64,000 bases of DNA from Legionella erythra. GTDB taxonomy: Bacteria; Pseudomonadota; Gammaproteobacteria; Legionellales; Legionellaceae. The stretch spans positions 268,654-332,653 of the forward strand of contig NZ_LNYA01000024.1 of assembly GCF_001467615.1 (NCBI RefSeq), given 5' to 3'. Each line of letters begins with the position of its first letter. Within the stretch, counting starts at the first letter, position 1. Both the position numbers and the translations under genes were made by a program. The notes beneath the pieces are model-generated. The model was not told the origin of the DNA. It did no database searches and saw only the letters and a list, made by a program, of their open reading frames with translations. Shown here piece by piece: positions 27,393 through 45,619 of the stretch.

Positions 27393-28460
27393 TCAGGTTA
27401 CCACGCCGTTTTTATGAAATTTTAGGCTATAGTCGTTGACAGTTTCTATCAATGCCGCCAGGTGTTCAGGCGGTATATGAGGCAGGATACCGTGGCCCAA
27501 ATTGAGAACATGGCCGGGACCCTCACCGTAATCGTCGAGTAATTGTTTGGTCTTTTCAATAATCACAGCGGGAGGCGCCAATAACACCACAGGATCGAGA
27601 TTGCCCTGCAGGGCCACCTGCTTTCCTACCCGACGTTTTGCCTCATTCATGTCGCAGGTCCAATCCAACCCCACGCACTGGCATCCCGTTTCCGCGATAG
27701 TCTCCAGCCATTGCCCCCCACCTTTGGTAAACAGAATAATGGGAATATCCGGGGCTTGCGTTTTAAGGTAATTGACAATTTCCTGCATATATACCAAAGA
27801 AAACTGGTGGTAATCCCGAGTCGATAACACCCCACCCCAGGTATCAAAAACCATGACGGCATCCACCCCATGCGTGATTTGTGCATGCAGATAGGATTGA
27901 ATGGACGAGGTGAGTTTGGCAAGTAACCGATGCAATAATTCCGGAGCGCTATAGAGCATTTTTTTAATTTCGTAAAAAGTATGGGTGCCCTGCCCTTCAA
28001 CCATGTAGGTTGCCAGAGTAAACGGACTGCCGGAGAAACCAATAAGCGGCAGGCGGCCCGCCAGGGAGGATTTAATCAACTGAACGGCATCCATGACGTA
28101 GTTTAACTCTGTACCGGGATCGATTGCAGGCAAGTCCTCTACGTCAGCCCATGATTTGATGGTTTTCGCAAAGACCGGCCCGCGCTGTTCAACGATACTC
28201 ACCCCCATGCCCATGGCATCCGGAATGGTTAAAATATCAGAAAACAAGATGGCCGCATCCAGCGCATAGCGGGTAATGGGTTGCAACGTCACTTCGCAGG
28301 CTAGCTCAGGTGTTTTGCAAAGGGTCATAAAATCACCGGCTTTGTCACGAGTCTTTAGGTATTCAGGCAAATAACGTCCTGCTTGTCTCATAATCCAAAC
28401 CGGGGTTTTATCCACAGGTTGTCGTTTTAATGCCCGAATGAATCGATGGTTTGTATCCAT
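27393..28460 (-). CDS. hemE: Uroporphyrinogen decarboxylase
   Basis: Converts uroporphyrinogen III to coproporphyrinogen III. 355 residues, the family length. Motifs: PVWIMRQAGRYLPEY (substrate arginines), ILFSDILTIPDAMG with the catalytic Asp, GFSGSPFTLATYMVEG, and LNLGHGILPHIPPEH. A GAGGAG site precedes the ATG. Immediately upstream, and overlapping its 5' end, is a truncated hemB frame. It lies divergently from hemA across 150 bases and forms the left edge of the tetrapyrrole cluster. Confidence 0.96.
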   Translation of the reverse strand: MDTNHRFIRALKRQPVDKTPVWIMRQAGRYLPEYLKTRDKAGDFMTLCKTPELACEVTLQPITRYALDAAILFSDILTIPDAMGMGVSIVEQRGPVFAKTIKSWADVEDLPAIDPGTELNYVMDAVQLIKSSLAGRLPLIGFSGSPFTLATYMVEGQGTHTFYEIKKMLYSAPELLHRLLAKLTSSIQSYLHAQITHGVDAVMVFDTWGGVLSTRDYHQFSLVYMQEIVNYLKTQAPDIPIILFTKGGGQWLETIAETGCQCVGLDWTCDMNEAKRRVGKQVALQGNLDPVVLLAPPAVIIEKTKQLLDDYGEGPGHVLNLGHGILPHIPPEHLAALIETVNDYSLKFHKNGVVT

Positions 28461-28774
28461 ATCGCTCCTCGGTTGACAGCGTTAGACTTCATTCTCCAGG
28501 TATCAGAACCCCGATTGTCTTTGTGTGCAGGTAAGCCAAACAACAGAATTGTTTTGATGCCTAAAGCGATGCTCTCCTTCAGTTCATGCAACAGGTCTTT
28601 AGACAATGGATAACATCCCGGCATAGTCGATACTTCTTTTTTGATTTTTTTGCCATGGCTAACAAAAAGAGGGTAAATGAGGCAGTCTAAATGGATGTGG
28701 TTTTCTCGTACCAGGTCTTTTATACCCGGATTATAACGCAGTCTTCTCTGGTATGGACCCGGGGAAAAAGTCAT
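28427..28774 (-). pseudogene. hemB: Truncated 5-aminolevulinate dehydratase (N-terminal fragment)
   Basis: 115-residue frame. Residues 1-91 align by eye with the start of HemB: RRLRYNPGIKDLVREN, LIYPLFVSHG, STMPGCYPLSKD, GIKTILLFGLPAHKD. After GSD the similarity stops abruptly and the frame runs on into the hemE leader and start. The metal-binding cysteines and both catalytic lysines of HemB lie in the missing two thirds, so this cannot be an active enzyme. The junction is at about 28499, only some 40 bases before the hemE start, as if an internal deletion joined hemB to hemE. An intact hemB must exist elsewhere. Confidence 0.85.
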
Positions 28775-28830
28775 AGGATATCCACAACGAAAGGCGCGAA
28801 GTAATTATAGACGATAGCTGATTAAATTTC

Positions 28831-28859
28831 TTGCTATGTGTGCAATATTTTACTATAAC
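28831..28859 (+). promoter_or_regulatory. Probable hemA operon promoter
   Basis: TTGCTA, a 17-base spacer and TATAAC on the plus strand, about 66 bases upstream of the hemA ATG. On the other strand a TATAAT at 28809-28804 points toward hemB'-hemE but has no good -35 box. The intergenic region therefore probably holds divergent promoters, where coordinated control of both arms could act. Confidence 0.5.
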
Positions 28860-43745: not shown

Positions 43746-44652
43746 GGGCTTTAAGCCATTCTATAGTCATGTGAGCCAATTCATCGATCGCTTTAATACG
43801 CTCTTTCGTGGCGAAGTCCACTTCTTTAAGATAAAACTGTGTCAGGGGCTCATTGGATAAAAACAGTTTCATTCGTAACCTGTCCTGCTGCTCGGTGGTG
43901 TATAAACCCAGAGGCGCCTTGCAATCCAGGCCGACATGGCTTAAAAAATGAAGATCCGAGGTGGAGATCAACTCCTGGTGACTATCATTGATGGCCTTGG
44001 CGCATTCAATAGCAAAATCATCCCCATCGCGCGTCTGCAGGGCGATAACCCCCTGCCCCGGTGCCGGAATAAAAAGATTGGGATCTAATGCCTCCTGATT
44101 GAGATCCGTCAGTTTGAGACGGATTAATCCGGCCTCTGACAATAAAATCCCCTCGACGGGTAAACTTTTTATTTTATCCAATCGGGTTAAAACATTGCCG
44201 CGGATAGGAAGGGTTTGAATATCAGGCCGCAGGTATTTCAGCAGGGCTTTACGTCTTAAACTCCCCGTAGCAATCGTTGCATTTTCAGGCAAGGCACTGA
44301 ATTGACTATCTTTTTTATTAAAAACAAGAACATCTCTTTGCCCTTCCGGTTTTAAAAATCCCGACAAATGCAATCCCTTAGCCAGATTGGTCGTGATATC
44401 TTTAAGGCTGTGTACTGCGATATCAGCCAAATCATCCAGTAAGGCCTGCTCTATTTCCTTAATAAATATCCCTTTACCGCCGATTTCGTGCAAGGGTTTA
44501 GTCAAATCCCTGTCGCCTTGCGTTGTTAAAGGCACGATCGTTACTGTCGCACGATCCAAAAGAAACGCCTCTAACTTGCTTTTTACAATTTCGGCCTGAA
44601 CCAGGGCCAGTTTTGATGCCCTTGTGGCTAAACGAATCGTCTTTGTCATCAT
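43735..44652 (-). CDS. hemC: Hydroxymethylbilane synthase (porphobilinogen deaminase)
   Basis: Polymerises four porphobilinogens. 305 residues. IRLATRASKLALVQAE at the N-terminus, GGKGIFIKEIEQALL, DIAVHSLKDI, ATGSLRRKALL, and Cys244 in GLDCKAPLG, the attachment site of the dipyrromethane cofactor. Two ATG codons in tandem could start it. Between hemF and hemD in the minus-strand arm. Confidence 0.95.
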   Translation of the reverse strand: MMTKTIRLATRASKLALVQAEIVKSKLEAFLLDRATVTIVPLTTQGDRDLTKPLHEIGGKGIFIKEIEQALLDDLADIAVHSLKDITTNLAKGLHLSGFLKPEGQRDVLVFNKKDSQFSALPENATIATGSLRRKALLKYLRPDIQTLPIRGNVLTRLDKIKSLPVEGILLSEAGLIRLKLTDLNQEALDPNLFIPAPGQGVIALQTRDGDDFAIECAKAINDSHQELISTSDLHFLSHVGLDCKAPLGLYTTEQQDRLRMKLFLSNEPLTQFYLKEVDFATKERIKAIDELAHMTIEWLKAHEH

Positions 44653-44707
44653 AAACCCTCTAGGTTATTGTCGGGTAAAACTTGTTAAATGCCTGCGTTA
44701 TAGAAGG

Positions 44708-45619
44708 TTAAAGATTAATCCAATCCCTGGCCTTTAAATAATAATCCACTAATTCCGCCTCAGCACTCTTTTCCTGAACATGATACTCGTAACACCAGGT
44801 CACCAGCGGCGGTAAGGACATTAGAATGGATTCAGTCCTACCGCCAAACTGCAATCCAAACAAGGTACCACGGTCGTAGACCAAATTGAATTCCACATAA
44901 CGCCCGCGACGGTACAATTGAAAATGGCGCTCCCGTTCACCATAGTCCATGGTATATCGTTTTTCAACGATGGGTAGATAGGCTTCGAGGTATTTATCGC
45001 CCACATGCTTGGCAAAATTAAACGTTGTGTCGAAATCCCAACGATTTAAATCATCAAAAAACAGCCCGCCAATGCCTCTCGGCTCTCTACGATGGTTAAT
45101 GTAGAAATAGTGATCGGCTCTTTCTTTAAATTCCCTATAACAGTCCTTGCCAAAGGGTTGGCATGCTTCTAACGCCTTTTGATGCCATAACTGACAATCT
45201 TCAACAAAACCATAATATGGCGTTAAATCAAAACCGCCCCCAAACCACCATAGAGGCTCCTCCTTTTCTCTTTCCATGTAAAATAGCCTCAAATTAGCAT
45301 GAGATGTCGGTACATACGGATTCCTGGGGTGGATGACTATGGAGATGCCGGTGCTGTAAAAGGGCAACCCCGCCAGTTCTTTTCTATGCACTAACGACGC
45401 CGGCGGCAGGGAGGCTGCATGAACATACGAAACGTTCACTCCCCCCTTTTCAATGACGTCGCCACCCTCCAGCACGCAAGTCAGCCCATCACCGACCGGG
45501 CTAGTCCAGGCATCCTTTTCAAAGCGCTGCAAAGGTTCATACTTGTTAAGTTCCGAGCATACCCTGCTTTGTAAATCCAGAAAGCAGGTTTTTGTTTTTT
45601 CTACCCAATCATTTGCCAT
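44708..45619 (-). CDS. hemF: Oxygen-dependent coproporphyrinogen III oxidase
   Basis: Aerobic conversion of coproporphyrinogen III to protoporphyrinogen IX. 303 residues from the ATG at 45619, with AGGA 7 bases upstream. Motifs: ISIVIHPRNPYVPTSHANLR, WWFGGGFDLTPYYGF, EPRGIGGLFFDDL, RRGRYVEFNLVYDRGTLFGLQ and GGRTESILMSLPP. The choice of the O2-dependent enzyme fits an aerobic host. First gene of the minus-strand arm. Confidence 0.95.
   Translation of the reverse strand: MANDWVEKTKTCFLDLQSRVCSELNKYEPLQRFEKDAWTSPVGDGLTCVLEGGDVIEKGGVNVSYVHAASLPPASLVHRKELAGLPFYSTGISIVIHPRNPYVPTSHANLRLFYMEREKEEPLWWFGGGFDLTPYYGFVEDCQLWHQKALEACQPFGKDCYREFKERADHYFYINHRREPRGIGGLFFDDLNRWDFDTTFNFAKHVGDKYLEAYLPIVEKRYTMDYGERERHFQLYRRGRYVEFNLVYDRGTLFGLQFGGRTESILMSLPPLVTWCYEYHVQEKSAEAELVDYYLKARDWINL

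Follow-up and report, generated by a model that had tools for sequence, protein, structure and literature searches.

The synthesis of Mg-protoporphyrin is known as the point at which the pathway to chlorophyll begins. The closest described systems are the Mg-chelatases BchHID and ChlHID, the methyltransferases ChlM and BchM, and the photosynthesis gene clusters of purple bacteria, in which bchH, bchI and bchD occur together with the bchM/chlM function. A further relative is the MacAB-TolC pump of Escherichia coli, which is described in the excerpt of PMC4263509 as exporting protoporphyrin IX, with macAB and tolC mutants accumulating protoporphyrin IX and becoming sensitive to photo-inactivation. 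Here we describe a block of tetrapyrrole genes in a 64,000-nucleotide stretch of the Legionella erythra genome (RefSeq assembly GCF_001467615.1, contig NZ_LNYA01000024.1, positions 268,654 to 332,653; hereafter the window), in which genes for the three Mg-chelatase subunits and a HemL-ChlM fusion protein lie inside a cluster of porphyrin synthesis genes. The locus covers the first two steps specific to the chlorophyll branch and suggests that a few non-photosynthetic Legionella may make a Mg porphyrin for a non-photosynthetic purpose.

The window is part of contig 24 of a 3.24-Mb genome assembled in 36 contigs and rated 100% complete with 0.14% contamination. Its open reading frames (ORFs) were scored against Pfam and NCBIfam models with curated cut-offs, and comparisons within the genus used 11 genomes, including that of the window (G000) and Legionella rubrilucens WA-270A-C2 (G007). 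An initial annotation, made from the window alone, had named bchH, bchI, bchD, a ChlM-type methyltransferase and seven hem genes in this block. Every one of these genes was found where it had been placed, with BchD, HemA and HemJ just under their NCBIfam cut-offs. Because the scores run to hundreds of bits and the same genes occur in two other genomes, a chance origin is excluded.

Results

Identity of the Mg-chelatase

The genes bchH (39114-42890), bchI (38078-39130) and bchD (36162-38081) are adjacent on the minus strand, in common with the described Mg-chelatases, and scored 1093 bits for the H subunit (TIGR02025, cut-off 829), 507.7 bits for the I subunit (TIGR02030, cut-off 467) and 498.8 bits for the D subunit (TIGR02031, cut-off 499.55). 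With the best CobN model, whose cut-off is 1468, BchH reached 545 bits. Eight comparison proteins were also scored; L024-L028 and L030 did best with BchH models, and L029 and L031 with CobN models. A tree was then computed from 22 rows, comprising three Legionella BchH, 11 sequences labelled as purple BchH, one cyanobacterial ChlH joined from printed pieces and seven sequences labelled CobN. Legionella BchH falls on the BchH/ChlH side, with 7/7 CobN-labelled rows opposite (split support 100/99). In this sample, drawn without Chlorobiota, Chloroflexota or other phototroph phyla, it lies outside ChlH and purple BchH together (100/98), on a branch of length 2.2. The composition test was failed by 12 of the 22 rows, all three Legionella rows included, which, together with the length of the branch, means that this deep placement may be artefactual. 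From its sequence we firmly assign BchH to the Mg-chelatase rather than the CobN family, in a placement that leaves the donor lineage unfixed. Model scores and tree together rule out a CobN subunit of an aerobic cobaltochelatase CobNST, and uphold the initial claim of Mg-branch enzymes in a non-photosynthetic Legionella.

Compared with the described enzymes, the host is a heterotroph and the identity of the H subunit to the purple BchH and cyanobacterial ChlH compared is no higher than 29-33% (29-31% to full-length purple rows, 33% to the partial row L030). The glutamates E612 and E647, within the motifs HGxxExMPG and NNPSEA, are kept in 7/7 aligned rows; ChlH chain 6yt0 carries D in place of the second glutamate, indicating that this residue is mutated in 6yt0. 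BchI is 53% identical to ChlI chain 6l8d over 339 aligned residues, in an alignment spanning GHRGTGKST and GILYIDEVNLL, which we take to be the AAA+ motifs of BchI. It is also 50-54% identical to the ten plasmid BchI listed, so that neither side is favoured. BchD has AAA and VWA matches above the Pfam cut-offs, and its translation contains DASGS, an instance of DxSxS, presumably the metal-binding motif of the VWA domain. BchHID is predicted to catalyse ATP-dependent insertion of Mg into protoporphyrin IX. No BchH or BchI relatives were found on viral contigs.

The HemL-ChlM fusion

Following bchD after a gap of 20 bases, a single minus-strand ORF (34117-36141) encodes a 674-aa protein, in which HemL (aa 6-430; 583.5 bits, cut-off 527) is followed by ChlM (aa 453-668, approximately 34138-34785), each with near-full profile coverage. 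The initial annotation had correctly recognised both hemL and chlM, but overlooked that they are fused. The ChlM domain scored 186 bits with the BchM-ChlM model TIGR02021 (cut-off 159) and 75 bits with Mg-por_mtran_C (cut-off 27). It is 41% identical to Synechocystis ChlM (4qdj) and 25% identical to one purple BchM, and differs from both described enzymes in being joined to the C-terminus of HemL. For the sequences compared, the 25% against 41% identity of ChlM and the 29-31% identity of BchH rule out a recent transfer from purple bacteria.

An identical fusion arrangement is present in G007 and G010, and 0/1973 plasmid records with a match cover 80% of the fusion at one place. HemL homologues are found on plasmid records L064/L065, from Legionella adelaidensis (where hemJ lies some 1 kb off) and Piscirickettsia salmonis. 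Identity among the three fused HemLs is 89-97%; with the three cluster HemLs that stand alone in G007, G008 and G010 it is 82-88%. The fused HemL of the window shows 87-88% identity to the sisters' cluster HemL and 65% to the other HemL of its own genome; its nearest relative is the cluster HemL of the sister species, and not the genome's second HemL.

Search for chlorophyll genes beyond the monomethyl ester

The initial annotation had described the bacterium as apparently non-photosynthetic, and searches of the 11 genus genomes for downstream genes agree. AcsF and the type-II reaction centre (PF00124) were each matched in 0/11 genomes, with the Synechococcus control matching in both cases. 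BchL gave weak, short matches in 11/11 genomes, none over cut-off, while one control passed. For BchE the best score was 25.5 of 481 bits (0/11 over cut-off), and, with no control genome over the cut-off either, its absence stands without a positive control. The cyclase, protochlorophyllide reductase and reaction centre genes by which a photosynthesis gene cluster is recognised were therefore lacking over cut-off, in a search that did not extend to BchG, light-dependent POR and type-I reaction centres. With both known cyclases missing from the search results, Mg-protoporphyrin IX monomethyl ester is the predicted end product, beyond which the pathway should not proceed. The block shares bchH, bchI, bchD and the bchM/chlM function with purple photosynthesis gene clusters, and differs in the genome-wide lack of AcsF and reaction centre matches and of any BchL over cut-off, and in the addition of BLUF and exporter genes. 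In the five phototroph plasmids examined, bchH is set between bchB and bchL, unlike in the Legionella block.

The surrounding porphyrin cluster

Leftmost in the block is hemE (27393-28460, minus strand; uroporphyrinogen decarboxylase, NCBIfam hemE 440.5 bits, cut-off 303), which occupies the same position in G007, G008 and G010. Next to it lies a 115-aa remnant of hemB (28427-28774, minus strand), holding only the N-terminal part (positions 4-93 of 317 in Pfam ALAD), at the site where L. rubrilucens has a 338-aa HemB. The initial annotation missed that the hemB of the window is only this remnant: no intact hemB is present among the window ORFs scanned, with the remaining genome not searched. 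Its statement that all steps from glutamyl-tRNA to Mg-protoporphyrin IX monomethyl ester are covered therefore depends on a presumed hemB. On the plus strand follow the cluster hemA (28926-30197; a second glutamyl-tRNA reductase, 26% identical to the other HemA, at G000:C3), a stand-alone BLUF blue-light sensor protein (30224-30646; Pfam BLUF 98 bits, cut-off 25) and the protoporphyrinogen oxidase gene hemJ (30648-31154; Pfam UPF0093 160 bits, cut-off 34). HemA has clear Pfam GluTR domains, including GlutR_N, with an NCBIfam score of 194 bits slightly under the cut-off of 210; HemJ likewise scored 133.7 bits with TIGR00701, slightly under 138.

Three further plus-strand genes encode a periplasmic adaptor or membrane fusion protein (31187-32152; TIGR01730 141.6 bits, cut-off 94.9), a MacB/LolC-type FtsX permease (32155-33408; Pfam FtsX and MacB_PCD above cut-off, top NCBIfam model LolCE under cut-off) and a LolD/MacB-type ABC ATPase (33408-34100; Pfam ABC_tran above cut-off, top NCBIfam model LolD under cut-off). 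This MacAB-like trio (31187-34100), the BLUF protein and the hemB remnant were absent from the initial annotation. Like E. coli MacAB-TolC, as described in the PMC4263509 excerpt, the trio combines a membrane fusion protein with an FtsX-type permease and an ABC ATPase. It differs in lying inside a porphyrin cluster, in having permease and ATPase as separate proteins and in lacking a matched outer-membrane partner, and porphyrin as its putative substrate is suggested by the neighbourhood and by E. coli MacAB.

Upstream of bchH on the minus strand are hemD (42987-43745; uroporphyrinogen-III synthase), hemC (43735-44652; hydroxymethylbilane synthase, TIGR00212 269.9 bits, cut-off 164) and hemF (44708-45625; oxygen-dependent coproporphyrinogen oxidase, NF003727 407.6 bits, cut-off 297). 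HemD was recognised by Pfam HEM4 (117 bits, cut-off 27.5), every NCBIfam match being under cut-off. The initial annotation gave the end of the block as 45619; the hemF ORF ends at 45625. In their own reading direction the minus-strand genes run hemF-hemC-hemD-bchH-bchI-bchD-hemL/chlM, with overlapping ORFs at bchH-bchI, bchI-bchD and hemC-hemD, and these overlapping or nearly abutting genes would fit a single operon. No promoter was found in a scan of 45400-46400 (shuffle mean 1.8), and Rfam gave 0 matches in 27000-48000. Homologues of hemX and hemY lie side by side at 20023-22316 on the plus strand, about 21 kb from the cluster hemC and hemD; these genes usually follow hemC and hemD.

Distribution of two separable units

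BchH is present in 3/11 genus genomes and 3/143 genomes of the order; the order-level search included 14 control genomes, of which five matched and three were over cut-off. Class-wide, 41/369 genomes match when BchH and CobN types are taken together, the best besides the window's own being 33% identical. One carrier is L. rubrilucens WA-270A-C2, the sole named match in a genome-contig scan for exact short peptides and letter-identical to G007.

Two units could be distinguished among these genomes. The first is the porphyrin cluster (hemE, hemB or its remnant, hemA, BLUF, hemJ, the exporter trio, hemL, hemD, hemC and hemF), present at the same syntenic site in 4/11 genus genomes (G000, G007, G008 and G010). 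The second is the bchH-bchI-bchD-hemL-chlM cassette of G000, G007 and G010, whose four ORFs stay together in all three. The cassette lies within the porphyrin cluster only in G000, where the fusion occupies the stand-alone hemL position of the other genomes, and at another site in G007 and G010. The supercluster proposed in the initial annotation is therefore real in this genome, but as a composite seen in no other. The kinds of enzyme are known; the fusion and context of the Legionella Mg branch were found nowhere else in the material searched. Among the matches listed in a PMC search, no title reports a Mg-chelatase or chlorophyll branch in Legionella.

Assembly contamination or misbinning with a phototroph would account for such genes in a genus that is not phototrophic, and for an H subunit to which the sequences searched offer nothing closely related beyond the genus (at best the 33% identity in the class). 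Against it, the cassette occurs in three genomes, within a 3.13-Mb contig in G010 and in one named isolate, L. rubrilucens WA-270A-C2; its flanks are syntenic with bch-free relatives, and the fused HemL half closely resembles the sisters' cluster HemL. The syntenic context already refutes this explanation, and we give it a negligible probability.

In G000, G007, G008 and G010 no hemC was found besides that of the cluster, so the cluster presumably feeds heme too. G002, G005 and G006 carry diverged clusters (L017, L018 and L019), in which a hemA 34-36% identical has HemJ and HemL nearby, with no BchH match. HemC is present in the clusters of G002 and G005 and was not found in that of G006; by Pfam, L017 and L018 hold a MatE transporter, and L018 a ferrochelatase and HemD. 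The remaining four genus genomes each have a single hemA match, at 24-29%.

Within the window, the G+C content of cluster and cassette is 42.7-43.7%, compared with 48.0% in bases 1-27000 and 45.0% on the right side. The cassette has 45.1% in G007 (flanks 38.5% and 46.6%) and 45.5% in G010 (right flank 47.1%). This contrast fits acquisition without proving it.

Selection and probable mobility of the cassette

Nei-Gojobori comparisons of G000 with G007 and G010 (dS 0.92-1.28) gave dN/dS values of 0.065-0.068 for BchH, 0.079-0.082 for BchI, 0.066-0.067 for BchD, 0.070-0.072 for the HemL half and 0.115-0.128 for the ChlM half. The cassette genes are under purifying selection and appear to be kept functional, with the ChlM half the least constrained.

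When G007 is compared with G010, the 9.8-kb cassette block shows 96.8% identity, whereas the flanking pieces show 85-89%. The corresponding dS values are 0.021 for BchI, 0.031 for BchH, 0.054 for BchD and 0.124 for the fusion, compared with 0.20-0.42 for five non-cassette genes. The cassette lies on opposite sides of one 211-aa gene in the two genomes, the product of which presumably belongs to the FAH family of enzymes. In G008, which has the porphyrin cluster and no BchH match, the pieces matching both sides of the G007 insertion are 43 bases apart, revealing an empty site. From this identity, the two placements and the empty site, we read the cassette as recently transferred between species, with a separate insertion, or its origin, in G000. 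Searches for terminal repeats gave only short, chance-like matches. A 175-179-aa protein without a Pfam match, and without a match in the window, accompanies the cassette (L008:10965-11492 in G007; L010:13463-14002 in G010).

The cluster could instead be a second or replacement heme pathway, carrying the bch cassette as a passenger with little function. The sole hemC of four genomes lying in the cluster, the cluster without bch in G008 and the divergent, BchH-free clusters of three further species, with a ferrochelatase adjoining the one scanned (L018), all favour this. The low dN/dS at a dS of about 1 argues against a passenger, as does an intact cassette in different placements with an apparent G007/G010 exchange, pointing to a kept function, and we consider this explanation unlikely.

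Other genes in the window

A 2925-aa ORF (49704-58481, minus strand), whose scanned C-terminal part has KR, carrier and condensation domains, is probably a hybrid PKS-NRPS. This C-terminal part matches G008 and G010 as far as the stretches compared extend, and in L. rubrilucens the match is limited to two short end pieces. A eukaryotic-like protein kinase (47672-48931, plus strand) matches the LegK1 model weakly, far under cut-off, and 60448-63291 encodes an ankyrin-repeat protein (61744-63291) and a second protein with an ankyrin match under cut-off. The kinase and ankyrin proteins are possible secretion-system effectors.

Discussion

The analysis establishes the identities of the genes, the fusion, conservation and purifying selection, and the lack of those downstream genes that were searched for; we infer the following product, export, light control and role for the block. 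Protoporphyrin IX would be made by the hemA/BLUF/hemJ/exporter arm together with the convergent hemF-hemC-hemD-bch-hemL/chlM arm, the second hemA and second hemL covering the steps that set 5-aminolevulinate supply. BchHID would insert Mg2+ into protoporphyrin IX, and the HemL-fused ChlM would methylate the product to Mg-protoporphyrin IX monomethyl ester, ending the pathway, so that the fusion would couple the step feeding 5-aminolevulinate to the last step. The BLUF protein probably makes output depend on blue light, and the porphyrin is probably exported by the MacAB-like pump, given its likeness to E. coli MacAB-TolC. The end product would most likely be a light-active pigment or signal, and not a photosynthetic cofactor. 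We consider it reasonably probable that the block encodes such a second, dedicated pathway for tetrapyrroles that includes a Mg branch.

Dark-red autofluorescence is described for L. rubrilucens, L. erythra and L. taurinensis in the PMC10975825 excerpt, and the three form a monophyletic group according to that of PMC6617341. In the excerpt of PMC6963517, L. rubrilucens lysate absorbs at 410-420 nm and emits at approximately 580, 630 and 675 nm; the 630 nm peak was matched to protoporphyrin IX, and none of the free-base porphyrins compared could account for the peak at 580 nm. As far as this excerpt goes, the spectra support porphyrin accumulation in a carrier species, and not a Mg-porphyrin specifically.

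Several points weigh against a Mg-porphyrin product exported by the block. BchD falls 0.7 bit short of its curated cut-off, and the very long BchH branch makes an altered specificity possible. The cassette lies apart from the exporter cluster in G007 and G010, and the Pfam and NCBIfam scans of the block matched no family of outer-membrane channels. Product formation, cluster expression and the regulatory role of BLUF are predictions from sequence, as the initial annotation had said of the making and use of the product. Mg-protoporphyrin emits near 595 nm, only a rough fit to 580 nm. The 580 nm peak was itself assigned to Zn-protoporphyrin, and Mg-porphyrins are not among the standards named in the PMC6963517 excerpt. 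Such a peak would suit a chelatase shifted to another metal or substrate (for example Zn, Co or Ni, or metal removal as in HmuS), with the methyltransferase acting on another porphyrin, as would the low identity of BchH and its branching outside the ChlH and purple BchH sampled. Against this shift stand the I and D subunits and the ChlM domain that accompany BchH, the latter 41% identical to cyanobacterial ChlM, and an H subunit score of 617 bits with ChlH, compared with 365 bits with CobN and 287 bits with HmuS; we judge it improbable, slightly more so than the passenger explanation. The dedicated pathway with a Mg branch remains our preferred reading.

We further infer a link between the red autofluorescence and the cluster. 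Most aligned pieces of G000 and L. rubrilucens are about 76-83% identical, a few reaching 85-89%, while in the porphyrin-cluster region the bch-free G008 and the bch-bearing G010 are both 90-92% identical to L. rubrilucens. Because G008, which lacks bch genes, is as near to L. rubrilucens as G010 is, we dropped an exact equation of the three bch carriers with the three red-autofluorescent species: G008 may be one of these species, and the red colour may go with the porphyrin cluster instead of the cassette. Among the matches listed, no PMC title gives a genetic cause of Legionella red autofluorescence. We tentatively propose, as a possibility short of even odds, that the mobile bchHID-hemL-chlM cassette and the light-sensing, porphyrin-exporting cluster together yield a secreted Mg-porphyrin photosensitiser or host signal, a form of secondary metabolism for which the chlorophyll branch would have been recruited, and that the cluster, with or without its Mg branch, underlies the red autofluorescence of L. 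rubrilucens, L. erythra and L. taurinensis.

In heterotrophic Legionella, a conserved Mg branch under selection whose last product is the monomethyl ester would extend Mg-protoporphyrin synthesis to a role beyond photosynthesis. The block offers a specific candidate behind the red autofluorescence by which Legionella species are sorted, and the HemL-ChlM fusion may link the supply of porphyrin with the Mg branch. The divergent H-subunit lineage would be useful for the history of Mg-chelatase.

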